DNA from: Lacunisphaera sp.
Lineage (GTDB): Bacteria; Verrucomicrobiota; Verrucomicrobiia; Opitutales; Opitutaceae
Length of the DNA stretch: 36,348 nucleotides
Reading direction: 5' to 3'
Assembly (NCBI GenBank): GCA_029945855.1
Contig: JAQSDJ010000108.1
Coordinates: 1 to 36,348 of the forward strand
The position numbers and the translations under genes were made by a program. The notes below the pieces were generated by a model, which searched no databases, was not told where the DNA came from, and saw nothing but the letters and a program-made list of their open reading frames with translations. Positions 11,198-36,348 of this stretch are shown here, in pieces (within the stretch, counting starts at the first letter, position 1; each line of letters starts with the position of its first letter).

Positions 11198-12355
11198 TCA
11201 AGCCCGGCATGATTTTACGGCGTGTTCGAGTTCCCGGGCTTCGGCGGGGGTGAGGGGGTCTTCCACGAGAATGGCCGTGGCGCGGCGGTCAAGGACGCGG
11301 GCCAGTCGGGAGACTTCGTGCTTGGGCGCAATCACGAGCACAGGCTTGCCGGCCGCCTGCAATCCCCGCAGCAGGTCCAGTTTGGCGAGGGCGGATGGGG
11401 TCCCGGCGCCTGGAGTGTATTGCACGGCCGTGATAGACGGTTCCGCCTGCAAGACTGGGGAGTGTCGCGCGGCCTGAGGCCCGTCGAGATGAAATAGCAG
11501 GTTGCCGGCAGACTCAGCCTGCTGCCGGAGGGAGGGCAGGCAGCAGTCCCGGAAATCGTCGGGCCCGATGAGGGCGGTGAAATCACAGGTTGGAATGGTA
11601 AACGGGCGGTTCGACCAGCAGGCCAGCCACTGCGTCACGCCCGTTCCGCGACTCAGCACCGCGTCCATGATTTCGGTGTAGATGTGGTCCCACGCGCTCA
11701 TCACCCGCAGCGATGCAGCAATCACCTCGGTCCGGTGGTCGTGCAAGTCGAGGCAGAGTTGGTCGGGGCCGCGCAGATTGACCAGCACATCAATGGCTCC
11801 ACTGAGATCGGGGGTGCAGACGAGATATCGGCCGCGGGCATCGTCTGCGACCAGTTTGAGGAGCGTAATGACCCGCTTAAACCACGGATTGTCGGGATCG
11901 AAGCCGAATCCAGGCGGATTCTGCCAATCCGTGATGATCGGGTGCTGCCAGGAAGTCTGCTCCGCTTCGCTCAGCGTGAGCGGGGCGCCAAGAAACGCGC
12001 CCACGGCGACCGGACCAATGTCGACGCGGATGCGCGGGATTGAATCGCCGACGAACATCGTTCCCTCCAGCTGGCGGCGCCGCAGCGCGAGCCACTCGGC
12101 CGGATGATCGAGGAGATGAAACGCCTTGCCGCGGTAGATCCCCTCGGTGGTGGGTGCTGCGGCGACCAGCAACGGGCACTCGGCGGAAAAATTCCACCAA
12201 CGTTCCCAGCGCGCAGCAATCTCCGGGAAGGCCGGACAATACTCCAGGGGTTGCCGGGCTATGGCGTAAAGCTGCTCAGTCCAAACCGGGTGGCGCGAAC
12301 GGGTCATGCACCCGAATAAAGGTCGGCAGACCGCCTTTGGCAAATGAAGCTGCAC
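11198..12355 (-). CDS. Uroporphyrinogen decarboxylase (URO-D)-like protein, ~385 aa (start could be 12307)
   Basis: NLLFHLDGPQAARHSPVLQAEPSITAVQYTPGAGTP resembles the UroD-like HLDG...LDAIQWxPGAG motif. Confidence 0.65.
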   Translation of the reverse strand: MQLHLPKAVCRPLFGCMTRSRHPVWTEQLYAIARQPLEYCPAFPEIAARWERWWNFSAECPLLVAAAPTTEGIYRGKAFHLLDHPAEWLALRRRQLEGTMFVGDSIPRIRVDIGPVAVGAFLGAPLTLSEAEQTSWQHPIITDWQNPPGFGFDPDNPWFKRVITLLKLVADDARGRYLVCTPDLSGAIDVLVNLRGPDQLCLDLHDHRTEVIAASLRVMSAWDHIYTEIMDAVLSRGTGVTQWLACWSNRPFTIPTCDFTALIGPDDFRDCCLPSLRQQAESAGNLLFHLDGPQAARHSPVLQAEPSITAVQYTPGAGTPSALAKLDLLRGLQAAGKPVLVIAPKHEVSRLARVLDRRATAILVEDPLTPAEARELEHAVKSCRA

Positions 12356-19009: not shown

Positions 19010-21040
19010 ATGAGGTCAATGGACAAGCCCGCACCTGACGCCCGGCAGGTTCGCCCTGCCAGTGCCGACCGCATCCTTCCGCTGATGTGGGCGGGACTGT
19101 TGACGCTCGCCTTCGCGGTAGGTGCCCGGGCCGACGTCGAGCTGGTGAGAAACGGCGAGGCAGTCGCGGTCGTGGTGATCGCGGACGACGCCAACGCGGT
19201 TAGCCGCTACGCGGCGGAGGAGATCGTCTATCACGTACGGAAGGCGACGGGCGCGACTCTTCCGATCCTAACCGAGTCGGCGGCCTCCGCCGGTCCCCGA
19301 ATTTGTGTGGGGGCGACGCGCGCTGCGCGGAAGGCGAATATCGCGGTGGACCGGTTGGCGCCAGAAACGGCGATGATTGTCACGACAGGCACCGCGCTGA
19401 TCATTGTAGGGGGTGACGCCGCGGGTGATCCCTTGGCAACAGACACGTTCGCGGGCACGCTGTTCGGCGTTTACGAATGGCTCGAGCGGGATGTCGGCGT
19501 GCGCTGGCTCTGGCCCGGCGAGCTTGGCACGTACGTGCCGGAACTCCGGTCACTCCGCGCGACGACCGCGAATCTCACGGTGGCCCCCCGTTTCTTCCAA
19601 CGCAACGTTAGGCCGGGCCTTACATTTAAGGGCGAACATGCCGAGCTCGGGTTCACGCCGGCCGTTGCAGGGGAGTATGCGCGCGATCTCGCCATTTATC
19701 TGCGTCGGCACCGGATGGGCCGGAACGTGCGGCTGAGCTACGGCCACGCGTTCACCGATTGGTGGGCGAAGTACGGCGCGGAGCATCCGGAGTGGTTTCA
19801 ACTCGTAAAGGGCAAGCGTGGGCCGACCCGGCCCGGCGGGAGCTACTCGATGTGCGTGTCGAATCCGGAGCTGCACCGGAAGATTGTCGAACTTTGGCGG
19901 GGAAAGCGCATGCGGTCTTCCGGAGCGGAGAGCCGTTTCGTCAACGCGATCGAGAACGGGATCATGGGCTTATGCGAGTGTGACAGTTGCCGGGCCTGGG
20001 ACGGTCCGCAGCCAGACGGCTTCCTTGAATTCTATCCGCCGCAATCGAAGGTGATGGGATCGCGCTTCGTCACGGACCGGTACACGCGGTTCTGGCTCGC
20101 GGTGCAGCGCGAGGCGGCGAAGACGGATCCGACGGCGACGGTCGTCGCCTATAACTACTTCAACTATTTTCATCCGCCGACCGCGGGAACCAGACTGGGA
20201 GCGCAGATCCTGGTCGGCTCGTATCCCTCGGCCGGCTGGTATCCGCGCTCCGCGGAGGAACAGGCGTGGTTCCTGGCGCAATGGAGCCAGTGGCAGGAGA
20301 CCGGGGCGCGGCTATTCTCCCGCGGTAACTACTGCCTCGATGGCTACAATCTCCCCTGGATCTTCGCGCATCAATTTGCCGACGAGTTTCGGCATCAGGT
20401 GCGCCACGGGATGGAGGCGACCGACTACGACGCCCTCACGGGACACTGGGCGACCCAGGGCCCGAATCTTTATCTGCTGATGCGCCTGCACACGCGGCCC
20501 GATGCGTCGGCAGAGGAGCTGCTGGCGGAGTACTATGGGGGCTTCGGCGCGGCGGCGCCGGCGGTGAAGGATTACTTCGATCACTGGGAAAGGCACACGC
20601 AAGGGCAGCGCGAACAGGCGAATCGGCTGTTCGCGGACAACACCACGCGCTGGCGGGCCTGGGCGACGGCGGCGCATCTGCTCTTCCCGCCGGAAAGCTT
20701 CGTGCCGGCGGAGGCGATCCTCGCGCGCGCGGCGGTCCTCGCCGCCGACGACCCGCAGGCCGCCGCACGCGTGGGTTTTCTGCGTGCCGGGCTCGCGCAC
20801 GCAAGACTGGAAGTCGACGCCGCGCGCGAGCTCACGCTCGCCGGTCCGGCGGCGAACCCAGAGCGCGGGGCCGCCGCGCTCGCCAAGCTGATTGCATTTC
20901 GACGTGCGCATGAGCGCTCCTGGATCAGCAACTTCAATCACGCTGCCTGGGTAGAGGACCGGAGCTGGCGGCTGGCCGAGCCGCGGTTGCTGTCGGGTTC
21001 CCCTTCATTCGCTCCAGGTGAAACCATCGCCTCGCCGTAA
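19010..21040 (+). CDS. DUF4838-type secreted protein, 676 aa (paralog B)
   Basis: Clear end-to-end similarity to the 17024-19000 product (GTLFGVYEWLERDVGVRWLWPGELGTYVP; CECDSCRAWDGP; YGHAFTDWWAKYGAEHPEWFQLV). Confidence 0.75.
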   Translation: MRSMDKPAPDARQVRPASADRILPLMWAGLLTLAFAVGARADVELVRNGEAVAVVVIADDANAVSRYAAEEIVYHVRKATGATLPILTESAASAGPRICVGATRAARKANIAVDRLAPETAMIVTTGTALIIVGGDAAGDPLATDTFAGTLFGVYEWLERDVGVRWLWPGELGTYVPELRSLRATTANLTVAPRFFQRNVRPGLTFKGEHAELGFTPAVAGEYARDLAIYLRRHRMGRNVRLSYGHAFTDWWAKYGAEHPEWFQLVKGKRGPTRPGGSYSMCVSNPELHRKIVELWRGKRMRSSGAESRFVNAIENGIMGLCECDSCRAWDGPQPDGFLEFYPPQSKVMGSRFVTDRYTRFWLAVQREAAKTDPTATVVAYNYFNYFHPPTAGTRLGAQILVGSYPSAGWYPRSAEEQAWFLAQWSQWQETGARLFSRGNYCLDGYNLPWIFAHQFADEFRHQVRHGMEATDYDALTGHWATQGPNLYLLMRLHTRPDASAEELLAEYYGGFGAAAPAVKDYFDHWERHTQGQREQANRLFADNTTRWRAWATAAHLLFPPESFVPAEAILARAAVLAADDPQAAARVGFLRAGLAHARLEVDAARELTLAGPAANPERGAAALAKLIAFRRAHERSWISNFNHAAWVEDRSWRLAEPRLLSGSPSFAPGETIASP

Positions 21041-21059
21041 TGTCTCTTCCCTTAAACCC

Positions 21060-22622
21060 ATGAAGACTCCATCGACCTTATTCGCTCGCCCGGTTCGCAC
21101 GGCTGGGCTCGCCAGCCTCGCGCTGCTCGCCGCCATCAGCGGCTGGAGCGCAGACAACGACAATACTGCGCTTCGGGCCGACGCCCTCGCCGGCCTCAAG
21201 CGGGCCGCGACATATTTCCGCACACAGGTCGCCTCGCACGGCGGCTATGTTTACTACGTCAGCGAGGACCTAAAGCAGCATGTGGGCGAAGGCATTGCCA
21301 CGCGCGACCAGATCTTTGTCGAGCCTCCGGGCACGCCGACGGTTGGCCGCGCCTATTTGGAGGCGTACGAAGCCACGGGCGACGGCTACTATCTGGAGGC
21401 GGCAAAGGAAACGGCTTACGCCCTAATCTACGGGCAACTCGAGTCGGGGGGCTGGTCGCAACGAATCGATTTTGATCCTAATGGGACTCATGTCGGACGC
21501 TATCGCAACGGGAAGGGAAAAAAGGACGGTTTCAACCATTCGTCTCTCGACGACAACCAGACGCAGTCCTCCATACAATTTCTCGCGCGACTCGACAAGG
21601 CGCTGCAATTCAAGGATGCCACGATTCACGAGTCGGCCCAGTATGCACTCGCCGGCTTGCTAAAGGCGCAGTTCCCGATCGGCGCGTTTCCCCAAGGCTG
21701 GAAAGAACCCGTCGCGACCTATCCCGTGCTCAAGGCAAGCTACCCCGCGGAGTGGCTGCGCGTGTGGCCCCACGAGAACTACTCAAAGTATTACACGTTG
21801 AACGACGGGCTCGTGGGCACCGTGTCCGACACGCTCTTGGCGGCGGTCGAGGCCTACCCCAACGACATCTATCGCGCTGCGTTGACCCGGCTGGGTGACT
21901 TCCTGGTCCTCGCGCAGATGCCGGATCCGCAGCCGGTGTGGTGCCAGCAGTACAATTACGAGATGCAACCGACTTGGGCACGGAAGTTTGAGCCGCCGGC
22001 GATCTGCACCTTCGAGTCGGAGGATGCGATCAAAACGCTGATGAAGGTCTACCGCGTGACCGGGGACCGGAAGTATCTCGAGCCGATCCCGCGCGCGCTG
22101 GCGTACCTGCGCACCTGCGTGCTGCCCGACGGACAGGTCCCGCGGTACTTCGAGTTGCAGACCAACCGACCCCTCTACATGACCCGCAAGCCCGGCGTGA
22201 GTGGCAACTCAAACGCCCCGGGCTACTACGATTTCAGCTATAGCGACAAGAATCTCCCCTCGCATTACGGCTGGAAGCAGACGCCGCGACTCGACGATAT
22301 CGAGAAGGAATTCGCCGCGCTGCGGCAAGGGCCGGTGCCACCTGCGCGGTTGGCGCAGAAGGTCACTCGTGAAGGGAAACTCGTGGCGATTGATCCGGCG
22401 GAGTACGCGGCGAAGCCATCCGTCAAACAGCTCGAGCGGGAAGTACGCCAGATTCTGAGAGCGCTCGATCAGCAGGGACGCTGGTTGACCGTTTATGACG
22501 GGAAGGCCCGTCTGATCGGCCAACCGAAGTTTGCCAAGGGCTTCCGTTATCTGAGCAGCAATGACTTCAACTACAACGTCGAGGTGCTCAGTAAATATCT
22601 CGCCGTCACCCGCCCAAACTGA
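21060..22622 (+). CDS. PL10-like pectate lyase family protein, ~520 aa, secreted
   Basis: Start moved to ATG 21060 (MKTPSTLFARPVRTAGLASLALLAAISGWSA signal peptide); GGWSQRIDFDP, SSLDDNQTQS, QPVWCQQYNYEMQPTWARKFEPPAI resemble PelA/PL10 proteins. Confidence 0.65.
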   Translation: MKTPSTLFARPVRTAGLASLALLAAISGWSADNDNTALRADALAGLKRAATYFRTQVASHGGYVYYVSEDLKQHVGEGIATRDQIFVEPPGTPTVGRAYLEAYEATGDGYYLEAAKETAYALIYGQLESGGWSQRIDFDPNGTHVGRYRNGKGKKDGFNHSSLDDNQTQSSIQFLARLDKALQFKDATIHESAQYALAGLLKAQFPIGAFPQGWKEPVATYPVLKASYPAEWLRVWPHENYSKYYTLNDGLVGTVSDTLLAAVEAYPNDIYRAALTRLGDFLVLAQMPDPQPVWCQQYNYEMQPTWARKFEPPAICTFESEDAIKTLMKVYRVTGDRKYLEPIPRALAYLRTCVLPDGQVPRYFELQTNRPLYMTRKPGVSGNSNAPGYYDFSYSDKNLPSHYGWKQTPRLDDIEKEFAALRQGPVPPARLAQKVTREGKLVAIDPAEYAAKPSVKQLEREVRQILRALDQQGRWLTVYDGKARLIGQPKFAKGFRYLSSNDFNYNVEVLSKYLAVTRPN

Positions 22623-22625
22623 GCG

Positions 22626-25091
22626 ATGGTCCCATTCCGGATGCCGCCTTCCCGTCGATGGAGCCCGCTTGCAGCCATCCGCCGCCCCGGGCTGGTGCGT
22701 GGAGCCGCGCTGGGCATGGTCTGCCTCGGGCTCGTCCTGACGCAGGCCCCGGGGGCCGATAGGTTGGCCACGGCGGCCGCCGGAGAAATTCGCTGCTCGA
22801 ACGGTGACGCCGTCCTCGTAATCGATCAAAATCCCTGGCGGCTGCGTCTGCTGGATCGCGACGGAACGGAGCGTTTTGCCGAGGCGGAGGCACCGGCGTT
22901 CCAGGTGGGGGGGCAATGGATAAGCCTGGGTCGGGTCGACCTGGCCGAGTCGGGTGACCCAACGGTCGCGCGGTTGCGCGTCCAGCTTGGTGATAAGATG
23001 ACCGCGATGGCCGACGTCCGCCGAGCCGGGCCGAGCGGATTCAGGGTGCAGGTGCGCGCGGAGGCGGCTACGATCACAGCGGTGCGCGGCACGGCGGCGC
23101 TACGCGTGGTTGAGGAGATCTATGGATTCGGCGAAATGTGGAATGGGCATGTCGCGCAGCGCGGACAAGCGTTCGATCTCTGGGACCGAGGCGGCACACC
23201 GGACGAGTGTGCCTTCATGCCGTACTATGTGTCGACGAACAACTACGCCTTGTTCCTTAATTACGGCGGACGCGTCCGTATCGATGTCGGCCAGCATCGT
23301 TCGGACCGGCTCGTCTACGAGGCGACCGCGCGCGAACTCGATCTCACACTCGTCCGCGGGGAAAGCCTGCCGGGGACCGTGCGGAATTTTCTGACTGAAA
23401 TCGGGCTGCCTCAGCGCCCGCCGCGCTGGGCGTTCAAGCCGTGGTTCTGGCTGATGGCCGATCCGAAGCAGCCAGGCGCAAAGATCGATACCCTCCGGGG
23501 GGAGCACTTCCTCGAGATGACCGACAAACTCCACGAGCTTTCGATTCCAATTGGACTCACTTGGTTCGAGCCGCCGTGGCAGGACGCGCGGACGACCTTT
23601 GTCCCGAACCCGGAGTTCAGCCGCGATATGCCGGGCCTCGTCCGGCAACTCGAGACACGGGGAGTCCGGACGCTGGCGTGGACCGTGCCGTATACCACGA
23701 AGACGGCCTCTAATTGGAAAGAGGCGGTCGAGCGTGGATATCTCGCCGCCAAGCCGGGCGCGATGACGGACGGGGGCGCCGTGAAGCTCTCAGCCACGGG
23801 GGAACTTGACGGGAGCTACTACAATGCCATCGATTTCTACAATCCCGACGCGGTCCGCTGGTGGCAGGCGCAGATTGATCGCAGCCTCGATACGGGCATT
23901 CGCGGATACAAGCTCGACGCCGGCCAGGATCTCGAGCCAGACGCACGCTTGCACGGCGGCCGCCTCGGCGCCGATGTACACAATTCCTACGCCCTTGAAT
24001 ATAGCCGCACGTTCTTCGGGGTATTAAAGCAGCGCTTTGGTGGTGATTTCCTGATGGTGCCGCGCGCGGCGTGGGTTGGTTCGTCGGCCTACACGAACTT
24101 CAAGTGGCCCGGTGATCTCAGCGGCAGTTTCGGCAACAATGGACTGCCCTCGTCGGTCTACTCATCGCTTTCCCTCGCGTTCTCGGGGTTTCCGTTTGTG
24201 TCGACCGACATCGGGGGGTTCGACGACCAGCCGGCGCCCGAGGCGGTCTGGCTGCGGTGGGCGCAGTTCGGTGCCATGCTGCCGGGCATGCAGACGCTCC
24301 ACATGCCGTGGTGGTATTCGCCGGAGGCACTCACACATTTCCGCTATCTCACGTGGTTGCACACTGACCTCACGCCACTGTGGAACACCCTGGCGAACGA
24401 AGCCGCCGCTACCGGGGCACCTGTGTGCCGGCCGCTCGTGTGGACGTTTCAGGACGACATCGACTGCTGGCGCGTCGACGACGAATTTACCGTTGGTGAG
24501 TCCCTTCTCGTCGCACCCATCATCAATGGGAATCCCTACCGCGAGGTATACTTGCCTGCCGGCGAGTGGTTCGACTTCTGGGACAATGGCGAGTCGGTGC
24601 ACGGACCGGCCCGGGTCCACTGGTTCAAGGGCTGGGCCGCGCGCGACAAGTTTCCGCTCTACGTCCGCGAAGGCGCAATCCTGCCGCTCGAAGTCACGAA
24701 CGACTTCAGCGGGTTTGGTTGGGCGGAGTCAGCGGGGTTTGTGACGCTAGCGATCTGGCCGAAGGCGACCGGCGCGAGCGAGTTTACGTTGCATGACACT
24801 GAAGCGCCTGTACGCATCACCGTTGCCCGCGACACCGACGAGGAATTGCTCATCCGCTGGGATGCGACGCAGCGTAATCACCTGCTGCGGGTGCACCTGG
24901 CCGGCGGGAAGCCGCCGGTTGCTGTTCAAGGTCCGGCGGGCGTGCTCCCCAGATACGGCTCGCTCCCTGAGTTCCGCCGGGGAGACGACGGCTGGTTTTT
25001 TGATGCCCCCGAACGAAAGTTGTGGGTGCGGAAAAGAAGCCATGGAGCGGCCGTCACGCTGTCGGTTCGCTTTGGCCCGGCAACCCCCTGA
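22626..25091 (+). CDS. GH31-family glycoside hydrolase, 821 aa
   Basis: GIRGYKLDAGQD (nucleophile region), KWPGDLSGSF (acid/base-type WxGD), STDIGGFDDQPAPEAVWLRWAQFGAMLPGMQTLHMPWW. Confidence 0.88.
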   Translation: MVPFRMPPSRRWSPLAAIRRPGLVRGAALGMVCLGLVLTQAPGADRLATAAAGEIRCSNGDAVLVIDQNPWRLRLLDRDGTERFAEAEAPAFQVGGQWISLGRVDLAESGDPTVARLRVQLGDKMTAMADVRRAGPSGFRVQVRAEAATITAVRGTAALRVVEEIYGFGEMWNGHVAQRGQAFDLWDRGGTPDECAFMPYYVSTNNYALFLNYGGRVRIDVGQHRSDRLVYEATARELDLTLVRGESLPGTVRNFLTEIGLPQRPPRWAFKPWFWLMADPKQPGAKIDTLRGEHFLEMTDKLHELSIPIGLTWFEPPWQDARTTFVPNPEFSRDMPGLVRQLETRGVRTLAWTVPYTTKTASNWKEAVERGYLAAKPGAMTDGGAVKLSATGELDGSYYNAIDFYNPDAVRWWQAQIDRSLDTGIRGYKLDAGQDLEPDARLHGGRLGADVHNSYALEYSRTFFGVLKQRFGGDFLMVPRAAWVGSSAYTNFKWPGDLSGSFGNNGLPSSVYSSLSLAFSGFPFVSTDIGGFDDQPAPEAVWLRWAQFGAMLPGMQTLHMPWWYSPEALTHFRYLTWLHTDLTPLWNTLANEAAATGAPVCRPLVWTFQDDIDCWRVDDEFTVGESLLVAPIINGNPYREVYLPAGEWFDFWDNGESVHGPARVHWFKGWAARDKFPLYVREGAILPLEVTNDFSGFGWAESAGFVTLAIWPKATGASEFTLHDTEAPVRITVARDTDEELLIRWDATQRNHLLRVHLAGGKPPVAVQGPAGVLPRYGSLPEFRRGDDGWFFDAPERKLWVRKRSHGAAVTLSVRFGPATP

Positions 25092-25124: not shown

Positions 25125-26594
25125 ATGACCCGCGCTTTTCATTCCGCCCTCTTCCTGCCCGCGTTCGCGCTAGCAGGTGCGGTGAACTCCGTCGCTCTCC
25201 CGGCGGCCCCCCGTCCTAATATCCTCCTGATTGTCTCCGACGATCACGGTCGCGAGGCCCTCGGCAGCTACGGCAACCCGGTCGTCCGGACCCCAAATCT
25301 GGACGCGCTCGCGGCGGACGGTACACGGTTTACCAACGCCTTTTGCACGGCGGCGAGCTGCAGTCCGTCCCGTTCCGTCATCCTGACCGGCCAGCAGAAT
25401 CATCGCAACGGCATGTACGGACTTGAGCACGACGACCACCATTTCAGCTCTTACGCCAACGTGAAAAGCCTGCCGGTGCGGCTCGCGGAAACCGGCTACC
25501 GGACGGCGCGCGTGGGCAAGTTTCACGTGGCTCCCGCAGCCGTCTACGGATTCCAAACGATCCTCTCCGGCGGCAAGGCCAACGATCCGACGACGATCGG
25601 CCGCAGTCCGGTTGAGATGGCGGAGCTTTCGCGCGGGATCATCGAGGCGGCGGACACGCGGCCCTTCTTCCTCTATTTCGCGACCGACGACCCGCACCGC
25701 GGCAACGCCGTGCTACCCGACGGCAAGCCGACGTTCGACACCTATCCGAGGCCGAATCCGTTTGGCAACCGGCCGGAGGGTCGACCGGGCGTGGTTGCGG
25801 AGCGGTATCGGCCCGAGGACGTGATCGTGCCCACCTATCTCTCCGACACGCCGGAGACGAGGGCTGAACTCGCGGAATATTACCAGGCGATCTCGCGGCT
25901 CGATCAAGGGGTCGGCCACCTGATCCAGATCCTGAAGGACACGGGGAAATACGAATCGACCGTGATCATCTATATTTCTGATAACGGCGCGCCCTTTCCG
26001 GGCGCGAAGACGACGCTCTACGACGTCGGCATGCAACTGCCGTGTCTCGTGCGCGCACCGGGTCGGAGGCATCCTGGTTCGGTGCAGGACGCGATGGTCA
26101 CGTGGGCGGATCTGGCGCCCACGCTCCTCGAGGTTGCGAGCGTGCCCACCGATCCGGCGGAGTTCGACGGCCGCTCATTCCGCGCGGGATTGGATGGTGG
26201 GGAGCTGCGTGGCTGGGACGAAATCTTTGCTTCGCACAGCTTTCACGGGATCACGATGTATTATCCGATGCGCGTGGTGCGCACGCGGCAGCACAAGCTG
26301 ATCGTCAACCTTGCGCACGAGCTGACATTCCCCAACGCGAACGACCTTTATCACTCCCCGACCTGGATCAGTGTGGAGCGCTCCGCCGGCCAGCAGCTGG
26401 GACGGCGTACGATCGAGCAGTTCCTGCATCGACCGAAACTCGAACTGTACGATCTGATCCGCGATCCGGATGAGATCCATAATGTGGCTGACGATCCGGT
26501 GTATCAGACGGTGAAGGCGGAGTTGCTGAGGAAGCTCAAGGCGTGGCAGGCAGCGACGAAGGATCCGTGGCTGCATAAATGGAGCTACGAATGA
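25125..26594 (+). CDS. Type I (Cys) sulfatase, S1 family, heparan N-sulfatase-like, 489 aa
   Basis: RPNILLIVSDDHGREALGSYG; formylglycine motif CSPSR in AASCSPSRSVILTGQQNHRNGMYG; ATDDPHRG; signal peptide. Confidence 0.9.
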   Translation: MTRAFHSALFLPAFALAGAVNSVALPAAPRPNILLIVSDDHGREALGSYGNPVVRTPNLDALAADGTRFTNAFCTAASCSPSRSVILTGQQNHRNGMYGLEHDDHHFSSYANVKSLPVRLAETGYRTARVGKFHVAPAAVYGFQTILSGGKANDPTTIGRSPVEMAELSRGIIEAADTRPFFLYFATDDPHRGNAVLPDGKPTFDTYPRPNPFGNRPEGRPGVVAERYRPEDVIVPTYLSDTPETRAELAEYYQAISRLDQGVGHLIQILKDTGKYESTVIIYISDNGAPFPGAKTTLYDVGMQLPCLVRAPGRRHPGSVQDAMVTWADLAPTLLEVASVPTDPAEFDGRSFRAGLDGGELRGWDEIFASHSFHGITMYYPMRVVRTRQHKLIVNLAHELTFPNANDLYHSPTWISVERSAGQQLGRRTIEQFLHRPKLELYDLIRDPDEIHNVADDPVYQTVKAELLRKLKAWQAATKDPWLHKWSYE

Positions 26595-28120
26595 GCCGTT
26601 TCCACACCGTATTCGCCCCGCGCATTTTCCCGCTGCGTCCCGGCCTCATCTGGCTGATGGTGGCCGGCTGTACCGCGGGCGCGCCAACGCGGGCCGCCGT
26701 GTTCATGGCCGACGGGGCCAAGGCCGGGGAGATCACGCAAGATTCTGCCATCATCTGGACCCGGCTGACGCAGAAGGCGGAACGCAACGTGCCGGGAATT
26801 CCTTTTCCCCACGTACAGGTCGATCCCAAGGGCATCCCGATACCGCCCGGCAAGACCGCCTATGAAGCCGACGCGATCCGGGTGAGTGCGCCCATCTCCG
26901 CGGCGCGGCAGCTGGCCGGCCACGCGCTGGAGGAGATGGCGGGCGCCGTGCCCGGTGCACCGGGTGCGGTGCGGATCGCCTACTGGCCGGCGTCGGCCGG
27001 CGAGGGCACGGCCCGACGCACCAGCCGGGTCGCCGTGACCGCCGCGAGCGACTTCACGGCGCAGATCGCGCTGCACGACCTGCAACCGGGCACCCGTTAC
27101 CGGTTCCGGGCGGAGGGCTTCCTCCCGGGCCGCGACGAGGTGGCCGGGACCTTCGAGGGTGGCTTCAAGACGGCGCCCGTGCCCGGCACGCCGGCGCGCA
27201 TCAGTTTCACCGTGGCGACCTGCCAGGATTACGATCGGCGGGACGACCCGGAAAACGGGCACATGATCTACGCGGCCATGGGCCGCCTCCAGCCGGACTT
27301 CTTCGTGCATACAGGCGATATCGAGTACTACGACAAGCCCACGCCGCTGGCCACGAACGTGGCGCTCGCTCGCTTCAAGTGGAACCGCATCTTCGCATTG
27401 CCGCATCAACGGGCGTTCCATGCGCAGACGAGCAGCTATTTCATGAAGGACGACCACGACACCCTGAAGGACGACGCCTGGGCCGGTCAGACCTACGGCG
27501 ACCTCACGTGGGAGCAGGGGCTCGCCCTGTTCCGCGAGCAGGTGCCGATCGGCGTGAAGACCTACCGCACGGTCCGTTGGGGCAAGGATCTGCAGATCTG
27601 GCTGGTCGAGGGCCGCGACTTCCGGAGCCCGAACGACCAGCCGGACGGACCCGGAAAAAGCATCTGGGGCGCGGAACAGAAGCGCTGGTTCTTCGACACC
27701 GTCCGGGCCTCCGACGCAACCTTCCGGATCCTGATCAGTCCGACCCCGCTGGTCGGACCGGACCGTGAGGGGAAGGCCGACAGCCACGCCAACCGCGCCT
27801 TCGCCCACGAGGGGCGCCAATTGCGTGAATTCATCGCCACACAGCGAAACATGTTCGTGCTCAGCGGCGACCGGCACTGGCAGTATGCCTCCGTCGATCC
27901 GCTGACTGGCCTGCGGGAATACGGCTGCGGGCCGAGTTCGGATGCACACGCGGGCGGCTTCAGCGAAGCCGAGCGGACGCCAGCCCACCGTTACCTGCGG
28001 ATCAAGGGCGGCTTTCTCTCCGTCCTGGTCGAACGCGTGGACGGCCATCCCCGGGTCGTGGTTCGTCACCACGCGGTCGACGGAAAACTCCAACATGAAG
28101 ATGTGCTCCCCGCAGAGTAG
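26591..28120 (+). CDS. PhoD-like alkaline phosphatase/phosphodiesterase, ~509 aa
   Basis: TCQDY, HTGDIEYYD, MKDDHDTLKDDAW, LSGDRHWQYA; ATGA overlap with the sulfatase stop. Confidence 0.85.
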   Translation: MSRFHTVFAPRIFPLRPGLIWLMVAGCTAGAPTRAAVFMADGAKAGEITQDSAIIWTRLTQKAERNVPGIPFPHVQVDPKGIPIPPGKTAYEADAIRVSAPISAARQLAGHALEEMAGAVPGAPGAVRIAYWPASAGEGTARRTSRVAVTAASDFTAQIALHDLQPGTRYRFRAEGFLPGRDEVAGTFEGGFKTAPVPGTPARISFTVATCQDYDRRDDPENGHMIYAAMGRLQPDFFVHTGDIEYYDKPTPLATNVALARFKWNRIFALPHQRAFHAQTSSYFMKDDHDTLKDDAWAGQTYGDLTWEQGLALFREQVPIGVKTYRTVRWGKDLQIWLVEGRDFRSPNDQPDGPGKSIWGAEQKRWFFDTVRASDATFRILISPTPLVGPDREGKADSHANRAFAHEGRQLREFIATQRNMFVLSGDRHWQYASVDPLTGLREYGCGPSSDAHAGGFSEAERTPAHRYLRIKGGFLSVLVERVDGHPRVVVRHHAVDGKLQHEDVLPAE

Positions 28121-30542
28121 CCTGAAAATAGCCGGACGCATCCTGATGGGCACCGCCCTCGCGGTGGCTATGGCGCACGCGGCCGGGCCGGCAACCGTGG
28201 AAGGCGAGGCGCTGTGCGCCGCCTTGGTGCGCGAGGTTTCCCTGCCGGTGAAGCCCGCGTGGCGGCCGATGATGCTGAATCTGGCCGAGCTACACGGCCG
28301 GAGCATCATGCCGGCGGTGGGGCACTTCCCCTATCCCTATCAGTCGATCGGGCCCGGATACGAGAATGGCCGCATTTTTGGTCACATCGACCTCACGCAC
28401 GAGCGCCTCGACACCGTGCGCGCGCGGCCGGAGCACGTGCGCAACCAGATCCGCAACGAGCTCGCGGGCCAGCAGGCGGACGGAATGATCCCGGGCATCA
28501 TCTGGTTCGACCCGGCGGGCAAGCCGACGTGGAAGGATTTCAAGAGTTTCCCCCCGATCTGGGTGGTCTCCGCCGAGGCTTACGTCGACCAGACGGGCGA
28601 CGAGGCGTTCCTGCGCGAGTGCCTTGAGGCGTTGCGCCGGCAGATCGGATGGTTTGAGGCCAAGCGCGGTCTGCCGAACGGCGGATTCTACTACCTCGAC
28701 CAGGTCAATGACAATTGGGAGAGCGGAATGGACGAGGGCATCCGATATAATCCGCGCCCGGCGCAGCGGTCGGCGGCGGTTGATGCGTGCGCCCACGTCT
28801 ACCTGCTCTACGACCACGCGCTGCGCTGGAGCCGGCGCGTGGGCCAGCCGGCGGAGGAGTGGGAACGCAAGGCAACCGCACTGAGGGCGTTCATCCGCAC
28901 CGAATTATGGGACGAGGGCACCGGATTCTTCTACGATGCCTGGGTGGTGCGTGATCCCGCGAAACGGCACCTGGCGTTCGAGGGCATGTGGCCGGTGGTG
29001 GTGGGAGCCGCGACAAGCGGACAGGCGCGGCGCGTGATCGACGAGCACCTGCTTAATCCGCGGGAGTTTTTCACCCCGCATCCGATCGCCACGGTGGCGG
29101 TGTCGGACCCGCGGTTCGAACTGCGCATGTGGCGCGGCCCGGCCTGGAATTGCATGACCTATTGGGCGGCGCGCGGCTGCTTGCGTTATGATCGCGCCGA
29201 CGGGGCGCGCCGGCTGCTCGAGGCGGCGCTAGATGCAACCGCGGTGCAGTTCGAACGCACGGGCGCGATCTGGGAATTCTATCACCCGCTGCTGGGCGAC
29301 CAGGGAGAGTTGAAAAGGAAGCCGACGGCGCGGAAAGAACCATGTCGCGACTACATCGGGCACAATCCGCTGTTTGCGATGGCCGACCTGTGGCGGAAAA
29401 CCGGCGGGTCTGAGGCACCCGCAGGAAGGGAGTTTCAACAGGTGGGGGTGAGGCAACAGCTGCCCGCCTTCGCCGACCGGCTCGCGCAGCGGACGACGCA
29501 CCCGCTGGCGTGGGCGTCGGGAGCGGTCGCCGATTTTCACGTCTGGCGAGAACTCGGGCGAAAGAAAGTCCTCGACTGCCTGCAGAATCCGCCGCCCCCC
29601 GCGCCGTGGAACGCGATGGTGATCGCCGAGGAGGATCGCGGCAGCTACATCGCGCGAAAGATTGTGTTCAACGTTACGGGCGACAGCCGGGTGCTCGCCT
29701 TGATGACCGTGCCGAAGGGGCCGGGCCCGTTTCCGGCCGTGCTGTTGCTGCACGATCACGGCGCGCGATTTGACATAGGCAAGGAAAAGGTCATCCGGCC
29801 GTTCGCGACGGACGCGGCCCGGCTGAGGTCGGGAGAACAGTGGGTGGCGAACTATGGCGGAAAGTTTCTCGGCGACGAACTTGCGCAGCGCGGGTATGTG
29901 TGTTTTGCGACCGATGCGCTCAACTGGTCTGATCGCGGCGGCGGCGGTTACGGTGGACAGTCGTCGCTGGCTTCGAACCTCATGCATCTCGGCATGTCGC
30001 TCGCCGGACTGATCGCTTGGGAGGATCTGCGCGCCGCCGAATTTCTTGCCGGCCAGCCCGAGGTCGAACGCGGGCGGATCGCCGCCCTCGGCTGGTCGCT
30101 GGGTGCGTTCCGGGCCTGGCAGGTGGCGGCGATGTCGGAGCACATCGCCGCTGGTGCGGCGGTTTGCTGGATGAGCGAGGTAAAAAGCGTGATGACCGCC
30201 GGCAATAATCACACGCTGTCACAATCCGCGTTCACGATGCTGCATCCGGGGCTACTCGACGATCTCGACTACCCGGACATCGCGAGTCTCGCCTGTCCGA
30301 AGCCGATGCTCTTTTTCAATGGCCGGGAGGATGACCTGTTTCCGGTTGACGGCGTTGAGCGCGCATACGCCAAGATGCAGGCGGTCTGGGACTCGCAGGC
30401 GGCGGGTGATCGACTGGTCACGAAATTGTGGAATACCGGTCACACCTTTGACGCCGCGATGCAGGCCGCGGTGTTCGATTGGCTGAAGGGCGCAACGGCC
30501 CCGCCCGGCCGACCGCCGCCGCCCGATTCAACGCGCCGCTAG
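28095..30542 (+). CDS. Two-domain protein: GH63/GH37-like (alpha/alpha)6 glycosidase fused to alpha/beta-hydrolase (acetyl-xylan-esterase/dienelactone-hydrolase-like), ~815 aa, secreted
   Basis: N-domain: ESGMDEGIRYNPRPAQ, FEGMWPVV, WRGPAWNCMTYWAARG, AIWEFYHPLLGD. C-domain: LLLHDHGARF, ALGWSLGAFRAW (GxSxG), NGREDDLFPVD, NTGHTF. Start set at ATG 28095 before a signal peptide. Confidence 0.75.
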   Translation: MKMCSPQSSLKIAGRILMGTALAVAMAHAAGPATVEGEALCAALVREVSLPVKPAWRPMMLNLAELHGRSIMPAVGHFPYPYQSIGPGYENGRIFGHIDLTHERLDTVRARPEHVRNQIRNELAGQQADGMIPGIIWFDPAGKPTWKDFKSFPPIWVVSAEAYVDQTGDEAFLRECLEALRRQIGWFEAKRGLPNGGFYYLDQVNDNWESGMDEGIRYNPRPAQRSAAVDACAHVYLLYDHALRWSRRVGQPAEEWERKATALRAFIRTELWDEGTGFFYDAWVVRDPAKRHLAFEGMWPVVVGAATSGQARRVIDEHLLNPREFFTPHPIATVAVSDPRFELRMWRGPAWNCMTYWAARGCLRYDRADGARRLLEAALDATAVQFERTGAIWEFYHPLLGDQGELKRKPTARKEPCRDYIGHNPLFAMADLWRKTGGSEAPAGREFQQVGVRQQLPAFADRLAQRTTHPLAWASGAVADFHVWRELGRKKVLDCLQNPPPPAPWNAMVIAEEDRGSYIARKIVFNVTGDSRVLALMTVPKGPGPFPAVLLLHDHGARFDIGKEKVIRPFATDAARLRSGEQWVANYGGKFLGDELAQRGYVCFATDALNWSDRGGGGYGGQSSLASNLMHLGMSLAGLIAWEDLRAAEFLAGQPEVERGRIAALGWSLGAFRAWQVAAMSEHIAAGAAVCWMSEVKSVMTAGNNHTLSQSAFTMLHPGLLDDLDYPDIASLACPKPMLFFNGREDDLFPVDGVERAYAKMQAVWDSQAAGDRLVTKLWNTGHTFDAAMQAAVFDWLKGATAPPGRPPPPDSTRR

Positions 30543-30600: not shown

Positions 30601-32742
30601 ATGGCCGCCTACCACTTCAAAGCCACCTCCTCTTCGCCTGAGGTCACCTGGTCGATTATGCATCCGGTGAGACCGTATTCCGGGTACATGCGTGAGGTCA
30701 TAGCCGCGGCGGCGAGTTATCACGTCGACAGTTTCGAGGTTTGCGGGGACGTCCATGGCTCGGGCGGCGGTCTCGACGGTGCCATTCTGTTCCGGGACTA
30801 TGCTGTGGCCGCCGGCGGCGTGGATCCGACCACGGTAGCACAAAATGTCGCGCGACTGCAGAAAATCATCGAGCTGGCGCACGACTCGGGTCGTCCGATG
30901 TACTACTGGCATCGCGAGGTGATGGTGCCGCAGTCGGTCGTCGAGCAAATTCCCGGACTGCTCGATGAGAACGGCGAGTTCAACCTGATGGGGGAGGCTT
31001 ACCAGTCGTTGATACGCTCGAAGATCCGGGAATTCTTCGAGCAGGTGCCGGCGATGGATGGGCTGGTGTTGACGCTTACCGAGTCGGATTACTCGGTGAT
31101 CCACAACTCCGATCAGCAGCGCTATCCCTCGCAGGAGGTGGTAGCGCGGGTGGTGGGAGCCTTCGCGGAAGAGCTGCAGGCCCGCGGGAAGCGGTTTATT
31201 TTGAGAAGCTTCGGCTCAATAGCGCAGGACTACGAGGATATCCTGAGAGGCGCAGAGATGGTTGCCGAGCGGTTCTCGTTCGAAATCGAGACGAAGATCA
31301 CCCCCTATGACTTCAGTCCTTTTCTACCCTTCAACCCCTACCTGCGCAAGAGCGGCGCCTGCTCGCTGTCGGCGGAGTATGATTCGATCGGCGAGTTCCT
31401 GGGCGCGGGCTTCCTGCCTGCGCCGGATCCCGAACGGGTGATCGAATCCGTCAACCACGCCCGGCAGCAAGGGGTCGACCGGCATGTCATACGTATCGAC
31501 CGGATCGGCCATGCCGCATTTCTGTCGACGCAGTCGGTAAATCTGCTCGCGTTCGATCGCGCCATTCGCGACCCGAACGTGAAGGCTGACGCGATTTGGA
31601 CTGAATGGGCCGATGCCCACTGGCCGGATTGTCCGGAGGCCATGGTGGCGGTGATGCGGCAAGGGATCGCGATGACCAAGGGGACCCATTTCATCGACGG
31701 GCACGTCATCTTTCATGCTTTTCCCATCCAGCCGGACCTTAAGTGGCTGAAAGCCTGTGGTATATTCTCGGTTTTTCGACCGCGCCAACCGCTGGACGAA
31801 CATGTGGGCATGTGGGGTATTCTGACGAATCGTGTCACCCCGGCGAGGGAAACCCTGCTTCGCGAAAAACACGAGGCGGTGGCGCTGGCAGACGAGGCCT
31901 TACGCACGTTGGAACTACTCAAAGGAAAGTTGTCACAGCCGGAGTTTCAACTGGCGAAAACGGCGTGGCGGAATGCGGCGCAGGTCACCCGAGCGATCTA
32001 CCATTGGTGTCGCGGCGTATGTGCTTACTTTAACGACATGGAGGCCGGCCGGCCGGATCATCCGACACTGGATCAGGCCATTGTGGCGGCGCGGGCGGAG
32101 TTCGAAACAATGCTCGGCGTGAGACTCACCAAGGGTGGGGGGGCGTCGCGGGCGGCACCCGGAGTGACCGCCCACGAGTACGGTGGCGGATCAGAGCCGG
32201 AGGAGGACTGCATTGAAGACGCCTATATCCAACCTATCTGGCGGCTACTAGTGCAACTCCCCGACGAGTACGAGGGCGAATTCAGGGAGCGGATGTATTG
32301 GGCGATGCGGGGCGAAGTCCAGGACTGCATCGTGTGCGGCGGTTTGCTGGACGATCTGCGCGTGCACCGCTACATGCACGCGAGTCACGCCCGGCTCATC
32401 GCCGGACGGCCAGCGAGAGCTGCGGGCAATCGTGTGTTTCCCAACGGCTTTATCGACGTGCGGCTGGCGCTGCCAGCGGGCGAAGCCTGCCGGTTGATCG
32501 TCCGCGGGGAAGCGGGCCCCCGGCGGGAGTTCCAGATTACGGTTGAAGAGGAAAACCATGTCGTTCGATTTTCTGCCCAGGGGGAGTACGTGCGTGTCTT
32601 GACAAGGTCCGCGGGGCCGCGCCGTGCCGCGGAAACGGTGCGGGTTCGCATCCAGAAGGTCGGCTCCGACTTTCCTCTAATTTACGCGATCGCAACACTC
32701 AGTGGCTCAGGCCAACCCTCACATCATCCGCTTTATGACTAA
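30601..32742 (+). CDS. Uncharacterised 713-aa protein, possible TIM-barrel glycosidase-like enzyme
   Basis: Long ORF co-directional with neighbours; segments such as SFEVCGDVHGSG, MDGLVLTLTESDYSV, ILRSFGSI, DAIWTEWADAHWPDCPEAM suggest a beta/alpha barrel; no signal peptide seen. Confidence 0.6.
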   Translation: MAAYHFKATSSSPEVTWSIMHPVRPYSGYMREVIAAAASYHVDSFEVCGDVHGSGGGLDGAILFRDYAVAAGGVDPTTVAQNVARLQKIIELAHDSGRPMYYWHREVMVPQSVVEQIPGLLDENGEFNLMGEAYQSLIRSKIREFFEQVPAMDGLVLTLTESDYSVIHNSDQQRYPSQEVVARVVGAFAEELQARGKRFILRSFGSIAQDYEDILRGAEMVAERFSFEIETKITPYDFSPFLPFNPYLRKSGACSLSAEYDSIGEFLGAGFLPAPDPERVIESVNHARQQGVDRHVIRIDRIGHAAFLSTQSVNLLAFDRAIRDPNVKADAIWTEWADAHWPDCPEAMVAVMRQGIAMTKGTHFIDGHVIFHAFPIQPDLKWLKACGIFSVFRPRQPLDEHVGMWGILTNRVTPARETLLREKHEAVALADEALRTLELLKGKLSQPEFQLAKTAWRNAAQVTRAIYHWCRGVCAYFNDMEAGRPDHPTLDQAIVAARAEFETMLGVRLTKGGGASRAAPGVTAHEYGGGSEPEEDCIEDAYIQPIWRLLVQLPDEYEGEFRERMYWAMRGEVQDCIVCGGLLDDLRVHRYMHASHARLIAGRPARAAGNRVFPNGFIDVRLALPAGEACRLIVRGEAGPRREFQITVEEENHVVRFSAQGEYVRVLTRSAGPRRAAETVRVRIQKVGSDFPLIYAIATLSGSGQPSHHPLYD

Positions 32743-33865
32743 ACCCCAAATATGCTCCCGCGTTCTATTGATGGCCTTGACTCTCGGACTCGCCGGACTT
32801 CGCGCGGCAAGTCCTGGCTTTGACTTTGGCCCGTGGCCGAAGGGTGCGGAGCCAGCCGTGGTCGGCAAACAGCTTGCCGATCGTTTCGTGTCGCGCGACT
32901 ATCGGCTGCTCAAGGCCGGCGTCATTCACTATGTTGAGACGTGCACCTGGTATGGTGCGCTCAACTACGCGCAACTGGCAGAGGATCCGGGCCTGATGAA
33001 ACAGCTCGTGGCACGCTTCGATCCGCTGTTCGGGCCGAAGGCCGGGCTGGTGCCGCCCCCGCTGAATGTGGATTTCGCCGTGTTCGGCGCGGTGCCGCTC
33101 GAACTTTACCAGCAAACGCGCGATGAGCGCTATCTGAAGCTGGGGGTGAAACTGGCGGAAGCCCAGTGGACGCCGCCGGCCGACGAGACTTCGCTCGACT
33201 CCGAAGCGCGCGAAGGCATCGCGCGCGGACTGAGCTGGCACACCCGTTTCTGGATCGATGACATGTATATGATCACGATGCTGCAGACCCAGGCCTACCG
33301 GGCAACAGGCGATGCGAAGTATGTGGACCGGGCTGCCCAAGAGGCGGTGGCGTACCTTGAGAGGTTGCAACAGCCGAATGGCCTGTTCTACCACGCACCG
33401 GATTCACCGTTCTTCTGGGGCCGCGGCAACGGCTGGTTCGCGGCCGGCATGTCCGAGCTTTTGCGTTCGCTGCCGACCGACCACGCGCTGCGGCCGAGCA
33501 TTCTGGCGAGCTACCAGAAGATGATGGCGGCGTTGTTGAAGGAACAGGGCGCGGACGGTATGTGGCGGCAACTGATCGACGACCCTACTTCGTGGGCCGA
33601 ATCATCAGGCACCGGGATGTTCACGTATGCGTTCATCACCGGCGTGAAAAACGGCTGGCTGGACGCGAAAATCTACGGTCCCGCGGCGCGGAAAGGCTGG
33701 CTGGCGCTGGTCGGGTATATCAACGAGAACGCCGACGTTCGGGAAGTCTGCGAGGGCACCAACAAAGGATTTGACCGGCAGTACTATCTCGATCGCGGCC
33801 GCTATGTCGGTGACCTCCACGGCCAGGCGCCGGCGTTGTGGTGTGCGGTGGCGCTGATGCGATGA
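32735..33865 (+). CDS. GH88/GH105-like unsaturated uronyl (rhamnogalacturonyl) hydrolase, ~376 aa, secreted
   Basis: FWIDDMYMITMLQTQAYRATGDAKYVDRA, FFWGRGNGWFAAGMSELLRSLP, AESSGTGMFTYAFITGVKNGWLD; ATG overlaps the previous stop by 8 nt; signal peptide. Confidence 0.88.
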   Translation: MTKPQICSRVLLMALTLGLAGLRAASPGFDFGPWPKGAEPAVVGKQLADRFVSRDYRLLKAGVIHYVETCTWYGALNYAQLAEDPGLMKQLVARFDPLFGPKAGLVPPPLNVDFAVFGAVPLELYQQTRDERYLKLGVKLAEAQWTPPADETSLDSEAREGIARGLSWHTRFWIDDMYMITMLQTQAYRATGDAKYVDRAAQEAVAYLERLQQPNGLFYHAPDSPFFWGRGNGWFAAGMSELLRSLPTDHALRPSILASYQKMMAALLKEQGADGMWRQLIDDPTSWAESSGTGMFTYAFITGVKNGWLDAKIYGPAARKGWLALVGYINENADVREVCEGTNKGFDRQYYLDRGRYVGDLHGQAPALWCAVALMR

Positions 33866-33938: not shown

Positions 33939-36348
33939 ATGAAACCATTCCTGTCACTTCTGTGTGCGGCCACGGCCGTGGTTCTGGGCTGCGCGGCCGA
34001 ACCCGGACAGGAACCTGTCCGGGTCGCGACGGGGCAGCTTCTGGTCGAACCGAGCTTCGAGGCAGCCAGCTACTATTTTCGAGCCCCTGCGCCCTCGGGC
34101 GCGACGGCATCCGGCTACGCGGTCGAGTTCCGGCGTGTGGGCGCGACGGACTGGATGCGGGCGCTTGAACCGGTGAGCGACCAACCGCCCGGCGTTTGGA
34201 AGGGCAGCCTGTTCGACCTGGCGGAGGACACGGCGTGGGAAGTACGCGTGCTCGCGCCAAGCGGCGCGGAGGTGAGCGCCCCGGTGGCGTTCCGCACCTG
34301 GTCTAGCCGGCCGCCGATCGCGAGGGTAGTCGATCTTAGCTGTCTGCCGATTGGCCCGGAGGGGCTGGTGATTTCCGACCAAGGCACGCCGGAGGGCTGG
34401 ATCAAATACACTGCGCCGGCGGGCTGGCGGCTTGAACGGCCCGCGGACGGCGGTGATCCGCAGGTGGCGGCGATCACCTTCCGCCGGGCACGTCATGTCA
34501 TCCTCGAAAACGTCACGATTGTCGGCGGAGCGCGGCACGCCGTGCTGGTGCAGGAGTGTGAAGCGGTGCGGATCCTGAATTGTGATCTTTCGGGGTGGGG
34601 CCGCGTCGGCGTACAGCAGTTCACCAACACGGGCACTCGCGGCAAATACGTCGATGCAAGGGGCGAGACCATCAACTACGACGGGGCGGTCGCGATTGAC
34701 CGCAGCGCGCGCACGGTTGTCGAGCGCTGCTATGTGCACGATCCGCGGCATCGCGCGAACTCCTGGATGTTCTCCCACCCGGCGGGACCCTCGGCGGTAT
34801 ACGTCAACTACGCCCGTGGCGGCACCGTGTTGCGCTGGAACGACTTCGTGGGCAGCGACGAGCACCGCTGGAATGATGTGATCGAGTCCCGCAGCAACGC
34901 GGCTGCGGACGGGGGGTTCTTTCGCGATAGCGATATCAGCGGAAACTTTCTGGCGTTCGGCAACGACGACGGCGTCGAACTTGAGGGCGGCGGCATGAAC
35001 GTGCGTTTTTACCGCAATAAGATCGAGGGCACGACCTGCGGCATCAGCACGGGGCCGTGTTTCTTGGGCCCCCAGTTCATCTACGGCAATCTGGTCGTGA
35101 ACCCCGGCGACGAGGCCGGACTCGCGCTGATGTTCTTCAAGAACAGTCACCGGGTGGAGCAGACCGGCCAGCGCTACTTCGTCGGTAACACCCTCTTCGG
35201 ACCAAACTGCAGCGCGTACGGCGGCTACGGCAATCCGGGCGCCGGATCCCGGCGGCTGGGGTTCATGCGGAACAACGTGTTTGTCGCGAACGATGCGCGA
35301 CGGCCGGGTGAGGAGTCACAGCGCGACGATTTCGACCATAACGTGTATTGGGCCGGCGGCGACCACCGCGCTGCAGAGGCGTTCCTCGCGGGGCTGCGGG
35401 CGATCGGTCAGGAGAAGCATGGCGTCGCGATCGATCCGCAACTCGCATCACCAGCTCTGGGTGATTTCCGATTGGCTGGGAACAGCCCGGCCCGCGATCA
35501 GGCGGTCGCGGTACCTAACCTCGCGCGAGAGGGCGGGGATCCGGGGGCCTTCGCCGAAACCGGCGTGGAAGTCCCTTTCCGGCCGCTGGCGCTGACCGCG
35601 TCGCCGCGGCAACTCGACTTCGACGCCCGGGCGAGCGATGCGCGGATGCAGGTGACGCTCAGCGTGCCGGCCGGGGCGGAACCGGTGCCGTTTGAGATTC
35701 GGAAAAACGAGGTGTTCAAGTGGTTCACGGTCACTCCAATGGCCGGCACGGTCGCGCCGGGCGCACCGGTGACGCTGACCGTGACACTCGATCCGGCGGT
35801 GCTAAGCGGCCGGCCGCGGTTCAAGGGTGCGTTTCTCGTGCGGACGCCGACGGGATTGTCGCGGCCCGTTTCGGTGTATGCGACGGCCAGTTTCGCCGAG
35901 GATCTGCGGCCGGCGTCGGCGCCGGCCACGATCTACCTCGATCCTGCGGAAATGCGGGGTTTCGAGGGGCGCGTCCGCGTGGCGAAGGAGCCGGGCATCG
36001 CGAGGGGGCGGTTCGTCGCGTTCGCGGGCGACGGGGGCGATCCGGAATTCGAAGCGCAGTTCACCGTGTCGCAGCCGGGCACGTACGGACTGCTGATGCG
36101 GGCCGCGATCAGCGGCGCAGTGATGAACGGACGGGAGTTCGAAGTGGCGCTGGACGACGGCCCGCCCATCCCGGTGTCGGTCCATCCGAGCTACCAGTGG
36201 AACACGGGCGCGACGAACTTTCGCGCAGTGTTCCTGCATTCGCTGGGCGAACTCACCCCCGGCAGCCACCGGCTTCGCTTCAAGGTCCGCGCCGGCGAGC
36301 TGAAGTTGAATGAACTCATCGTGACGGAGAATCCTGCGGCGTTCTTCA
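33939..36348 (+). CDS. Right-handed parallel beta-helix (pectate-lyase-like) lipoprotein, truncated by window end
   Basis: My translation from ATG 33939 stays open to 36347: MKPFLSLLCAATAVVLGCAAEPG (lipobox LGCA), ...RRARHVILENVTIVGGARHAVLVQECEAVRILNCDLSGWG... repeats, then an Ig-like segment. Not in the supplied ORF list because it has no stop in the window. Confidence 0.8.
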   Translation, partial: MKPFLSLLCAATAVVLGCAAEPGQEPVRVATGQLLVEPSFEAASYYFRAPAPSGATASGYAVEFRRVGATDWMRALEPVSDQPPGVWKGSLFDLAEDTAWEVRVLAPSGAEVSAPVAFRTWSSRPPIARVVDLSCLPIGPEGLVISDQGTPEGWIKYTAPAGWRLERPADGGDPQVAAITFRRARHVILENVTIVGGARHAVLVQECEAVRILNCDLSGWGRVGVQQFTNTGTRGKYVDARGETINYDGAVAIDRSARTVVERCYVHDPRHRANSWMFSHPAGPSAVYVNYARGGTVLRWNDFVGSDEHRWNDVIESRSNAAADGGFFRDSDISGNFLAFGNDDGVELEGGGMNVRFYRNKIEGTTCGISTGPCFLGPQFIYGNLVVNPGDEAGLALMFFKNSHRVEQTGQRYFVGNTLFGPNCSAYGGYGNPGAGSRRLGFMRNNVFVANDARRPGEESQRDDFDHNVYWAGGDHRAAEAFLAGLRAIGQEKHGVAIDPQLASPALGDFRLAGNSPARDQAVAVPNLAREGGDPGAFAETGVEVPFRPLALTASPRQLDFDARASDARMQVTLSVPAGAEPVPFEIRKNEVFKWFTVTPMAGTVAPGAPVTLTVTLDPAVLSGRPRFKGAFLVRTPTGLSRPVSVYATASFAEDLRPASAPATIYLDPAEMRGFEGRVRVAKEPGIARGRFVAFAGDGGDPEFEAQFTVSQPGTYGLLMRAAISGAVMNGREFEVALDDGPPIPVSVHPSYQWNTGATNFRAVFLHSLGELTPGSHRLRFKVRAGELKLNELIVTENPAAFF

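Follow-up and report, generated by a model that had tools for sequence, protein, structure and literature searches.

Family GH67 comprises alpha-glucuronidases, represented here by the reference structures of GlcA67A from Cellvibrio japonicus (1gqi, 1h41) and AguA from Geobacillus (1k9d, 1mqr). The Geobacillus GH67 enzyme is intracellular, as is predicted for the protein described here, and uronic acid is also the specificity of GH138 (BP0997, rhamnogalacturonan II). The fold relatedness of GH67 and a further group of alpha-glucuronidases, GH115, has been published (PMC3879575). To place these systems beside a protein that lacks a family name, we examined P0001, encoded in a degradation operon of Lacunisphaera sp.; the window, that is, the whole stretch of DNA analysed, comprises 36,348 nucleotides. 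As judged by comparisons of profiles, folds and active-site residues, the P0001 family is distantly related to the GH67 alpha-glucuronidases and has a rearranged architecture.

P0001 is a conserved gene encoding a protein that lacks a signal peptide

The P0001 open reading frame occupies exactly the interval given in Table 1, with 713 codons and an ATG start, and a genome search revealed a single copy in its own genome. The preliminary description regarded the product as a protein without a signal peptide, flanked by two secreted-looking hydrolases, and our inspection of the start and the flanks agrees: the sole in-frame starts are at 30601 and 30658, both ATG, so that a signal peptide cannot be gained by re-choosing the start, and both the upstream product, which contains MKMCSPQSSLKIAGRILMGTALAVAMAHAA, and the downstream GH88/105 product, which begins MTKPQICSRVLLMALTLGLAGLRAA, have an exported look by inspection. 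With P0001 as the single query, nothing in Pfam, NCBIfam or the PDB sequences matched over threshold. Since 26 full-length homologues, with 30-57% identity to P0001, align with 56 invariant columns (alignment A1), P0001 is a real gene and not a chance open reading frame. The invariant columns include E161, R202, E230, K232, D237, E259, E265, R298, D300 and R301. Whole-genome searches identified orthologues with 54-58% identity within the same taxonomic family; relatives in other families of the phylum have 40-46% identity and those further out about 30% or less. The family occurs in Verrucomicrobiota-like genomes and on one Bacteroidales contig (L007, 37% identity), the nearest relative in the tree being G026. 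No relative was detected in the viral contigs and phages searched, and a literature search did not find a description of the family. A match confined to the C-terminal part (L030) was considered as a free-standing module and resembles a gene remnant.

Table 1. Positions in the window of P0001, its domains and candidate active-site residues, and of associated genes
Feature	Position	Strand	Basis
Sodium:solute symporter gene	1692-3719		
Two tandem DUF4838 proteins, 658 and 676 aa	17024-21040	+	Pfam
Pectate-lyase-like protein, same gene run	21018..22622	+	PF09492; weak PDB match, pectate lyase 1r76
GH31, alpha-xylosidase-like	22626..25091	+	Pfam, NCBIfam
Sulfatase	25125..26594	+	Pfam, NCBIfam
MGH1-like (GH63-type) glycosidase + abhydrolase, upstream partner	27942..30542	+	Pfam, phmmer, ORF
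P0001, GH67-like, 713 aa, without signal peptide	30601..32742	+	ORF, translation, family alignment A1
TIM-barrel region, about residues 13-350	30637..31650	+	hhalign to GH67, AlphaFold secondary structure, Foldseek
E161, candidate general acid, counterpart of GH67 E292/E285	31081..31083	+	Invariant 26/26, joint alignment, 1h41
R202, aligned with barrel Arg of GH67 WRAFVY	31204..31206	+	Joint alignment, invariant in A1
K232...D237 (KITPYD), aligned with GH67 KNGPxD (K360, D365)	31294..31311	+	hhalign, joint alignment, A1 invariance
E259...E265 (EYDSIGE), aligned with GH67 ELQxTQE (E387, E393)	31375..31395	+	hhalign, joint alignment, A1
Helical region, residues about 350-490	31651..32070	+	hhalign; weak PF07477 matches in 8/26
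C-terminal module, residues 555-713, beta-rich	32263..32739	+	A1, segment conservation, low-confidence AlphaFold strands
GH88/GH105-type unsaturated uronyl hydrolase, downstream	32736..33865	+	Pfam PF07470, E 2e-57

Profile comparisons relate the P0001 family to GH67

To position the family, the A1 profile was compared by hhalign with a profile of 13 bona fide GH67 proteins from the same phylum, and with control profiles constructed in the same way. The direct match to GH67 (Prob 82, E 1e-5, 280 columns) is of moderate strength, and at the catalytic acid it is not clean, being offset by one column. A1 and GH67 are bridged by A3, an alignment of distant unnamed relatives (L039, L004, L005, L006 and L037), which matches A1 with Prob 99.9 (E 6e-37) and GH67 with Prob 98 (E 8e-14); the pooled profile matches GH67 with Prob 97.7 (E 2e-12). 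The A3 proteins, and the more distant L038, L040 and L032, have the same barrel-helical core as P0001 and corresponding residues in ET..., KETPHDF and EFDAAGEY, but their identity to P0001 is about 25% and the P0001-type C-terminal module is absent. They are likewise unnamed, with at best a sub-threshold GH67 match in Pfam. Further unnamed GH67-like families of the phylum are represented by these eight proteins and by L031, and in some of them catalytic residues have been changed or lost. Control profiles for GH115, GH84, GH20, GH31, DUF4838, the pectate-lyase-like protein, the symporter and the sulfatase all gave Prob of at most 2.8, on which grounds GH115, GH84, GH20, GH31 and DUF4838 were rejected as the closest families. 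In the case of GH115 the value was 0.4 (2.8 with the pooled profile, outside the barrel), and for GH20 and GH84 it was 0.3-1.0.

Membership of GH67 itself is a different matter. With the Pfam GH67 models, P0001 gave a match to PF07477 only (E 0.15, 12 bits against a cut-off of 27). This C-terminal domain is also the commonest sub-threshold Pfam match in A1, found weakly in eight of the 26 members, the best of which (E 0.027) is again below the cut-off, and an hmmsearch of PDB sequences with the family profile returned noise only. A search of the genome with PF07488 found, instead of P0001, a separate true GH67 protein, which matches solved GH67 alpha-glucuronidases with E values down to 7e-236. 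Since P0001 is not recognised by the GH67 models, lacks the N-terminal domain and carries another C-terminal module instead of ending with the helical domain, it is not a member of GH67, and because it does not pass this membership test, an unassigned glycoside hydrolase family is a possible reading. The preliminary description, in which P0001 could not be placed in a named family and was the best candidate for an undescribed glycoside hydrolase, is correct insofar as P0001 is a candidate cytoplasmic TIM-barrel glycosidase to which Pfam and NCBIfam assign no family; the protein is not an orphan, since profiles and fold relate it to the GH67 superfamily. P0001 represents a branch of that superfamily which is unassigned in Pfam and NCBIfam, rather than a new fold, and a CAZy number for it may already exist.

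Fold and domain architecture

With two sequences as input, AlphaFold reached a pLDDT of 55 on the whole protein; the model limited to the barrel and the helical part reached 69. The originally proposed succession of a barrel, a helical part and a beta-rich C-terminal part is seen in full in the predicted secondary structure, the last of these at low confidence. Barrel strand 1 starts at residue 14, with no room ahead of it for the alpha/beta domain that precedes the barrel in GH67, and the helical region aligns with the C-terminal helical domain of GH67 in hhalign. Beyond this lies the module that GH67 lacks, containing the strongly conserved, family-specific motif DDxRxxRYMHASH...GNRVFPNGF (residues 575-618; 32323-32454). 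Conservation by segment indicates that this C-terminal part is conserved about as well as the outer barrel.

The preliminary description had recommended a Foldseek comparison of the predicted structure with glycoside hydrolase families. With the whole model, GH115, GH67 and GH84 were on top of the PDB matches, whereas with the trimmed barrel model ranks 1-9 were all GH67 chains (E 4e-10 to 2e-8), followed by GH20 and GH138. As no TM-score exceeds 0.54, a low to middling level, we treat this result as support and not as proof. GH138, compared by fold only, reaches a TM-score of 0.53 with the barrel model and is larger than P0001. The high Foldseek scores of GH115, GH84 and GH20 structures would be expected if P0001 belonged to one of these families and were not GH67-like, and GH115 does resemble it in fold and general architecture; given the negative same-phylum profile comparisons and the first rank of GH67 for the barrel-only model, we consider such an assignment highly improbable. 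Shared ancestry of the P0001 barrel and helical domain with GH67 is indicated alike by the direct profile match, the intermediates, the negative controls and Foldseek.

Candidate active-site residues

In a joint alignment, R202, K232, D237, E259 and E265 of P0001 share exact columns with R325, K360, D365, E387 and E393 of GH67 (motifs WRAFVY, KNGPxDF and ELQxTQEYxG), at an overall identity of about 12-20%. We take these to be the numbers of the Cellvibrio enzyme, consistent with the observed chain offset; the Geobacillus equivalents of the E259 and E265 columns are E386 and E392, and the E386Q mutant structure 1mqr marks the former. In GH67 the Glu of SEGQ serves as the acid; the E292A mutant structure 1h41 has Ala at exactly this position, and the residue is located on a mobile loop (PMC3879575). 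Its candidate counterpart in P0001, E161 of TLTE, is found one column before E292, at the end of the same strand, and the alignment points to D237 and E265 as the likely candidate bases. The two acid motifs suggested in the preliminary description fared differently: E161 of LTLTESDYSV is invariant in 26/26 members, whereas IWTEWADAHWPD was rejected as a catalytic acid motif, since its D338 and D343 are not conserved and its E335, conserved in 24/26, falls outside the pocket motifs, the aligned GH67 residue being an invariant Glu where the helical domain begins.

The lysine located four residues ahead of the acid in GH67 (KANSE) is replaced by L157 in P0001, so carboxylate recognition is not fully conserved and the glycone pocket is not identical. 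Together with the residues that are invariant in the family and have no GH67 counterpart (HRE 104-106, E230, R298, D300 and R301), this substitution could suggest an exo-glycosidase that retains the GH67 fold, catalytic acid and bases while its target is an alpha-linked neutral sugar. We regard this as rather unlikely, since R202 and K232 are kept and the fold neighbours GH67, GH115 and GH138 all act on uronic acids.

A degenerate protein, in which catalysis has been lost from a sugar-binding or regulatory barrel, has precedents among the more distant relatives L038, L040 and L118, where the acid is lost or a base changed. It is an improbable description of P0001 itself, whose putative catalytic residues are all invariant in the 26 members in spite of identities of 30-57%, and whose gene has been retained in a degradation operon and, in relatives, joined to that of a glycosidase. 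L118 (Klebsiella aerogenes LR134122.1, 7788-9447) is a distant GH67-like protein split over two frames, adjoining RhiN, a transporter and a polygalacturonase. Because L118 has no counterpart of E161 and carries E where P0001 has D237, the linkage to RhiN was not used as functional evidence.

Gene neighbourhood and fusions with GH63-like enzymes

All credible genes from 17024 onward are on the + strand, in the order two DUF4838 proteins, pectate-lyase-like protein, GH31, sulfatase, PhoD-like phosphatase, MGH1-like glycosidase with abhydrolase, P0001, GH88/105 and a beta-helix protein. The last of these (33939-36347, +), which has weak matches to BACON and to the GH115 C-terminal domain, runs off the end of the window. 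No profile link to the GH67-like family was found for the tandem DUF4838 proteins. Elsewhere in the window, a 385-aa open reading frame (11201-12355, -) flanked by an FGGY kinase and a DeoR regulator has no Pfam or NCBIfam match. P0001 starts 58 bases after the end of the MGH1-like gene, and the likely ATG of GH88/105, at 32736, overlaps the P0001 stop codon (32740-32742), which speaks for a single operon.

In G026, one 1277-aa open reading frame joins a counterpart of the upstream MGH1-like domain to the front of the P0001 homologue, whereas a clade from other families of the phylum (L021, L023, L073 and L078) has the reverse order, with a different MGH1-like domain behind the homologue. The loci with such fusions include L063 (8883-12713, -). 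These separate fusions, with the domains in reversed order, argue that P0001 and its GH63-like partner share a substrate. By its Pfam name, this partner belongs to a group of neutral alpha-glucoside and mannoside enzymes, which would suit removal of a neutral sugar by P0001, but the GH88/105 and pectate-lyase-like neighbours point to a uronic acid polymer. A sodium:solute symporter gene directly adjoins the P0001 homologue in four relatives, and on the Bacteroidales contig the homologue is adjacent to GH88/105, together with an AXE1-type esterase. As this Bacteroidales protein has a lipoprotein-like N-terminus, the cellular location is not fixed across the family.

Proposed function of P0001

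We consider it fairly probable that P0001 belongs to the glycoside hydrolases of the GH67 superfamily while standing outside GH67, and that it acts in the cytoplasm as an inverting exo-enzyme on short acidic oligosaccharides. Its probable task is to release an acidic sugar from short pieces of polysaccharide, and we infer the following order of action. A lyase, an esterase and a sulfatase would cut the polymer outside the cell, giving short acidic oligosaccharides that enter the cell, where P0001 would take off a terminal alpha-linked uronic acid with inversion. E161 would protonate the leaving sugar and D237 and/or E265 would activate the attacking water; the glycone may be held with the help of R202 and K232, probably through the carboxylate of the alpha-linked uronic acid. 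P0001 would work after or together with the neighbouring unsaturated uronyl hydrolase, and the GH63-like partner would take off the neighbouring alpha-linked sugar. More tentatively, P0001 could represent a new glycoside hydrolase family within the superfamily, an exo-alpha-uronidase in which the C-terminal module shapes the pocket and which is closely paired with the GH63-like enzyme. This reading supposes a linkage for which, to our knowledge, there is no known intracellular enzyme, for example alpha-1,2-linked galacturonic acid in pectic oligosaccharides, which would mirror the alpha-1,2 bond that GH67 enzymes cleave.

GH67 had seemed to be a narrow family with a single activity. Our data suggest that it is one branch of a broader unnamed superfamily, common in one bacterial phylum and located in loci for the degradation of acidic polysaccharides. 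With its active-site residues named, the supposed orphan becomes a gene for which a few substrates can be listed and tested, and its fusion in both directions to a GH63-like enzyme suggests the identity of the two bonds that are cleaved one after the other.
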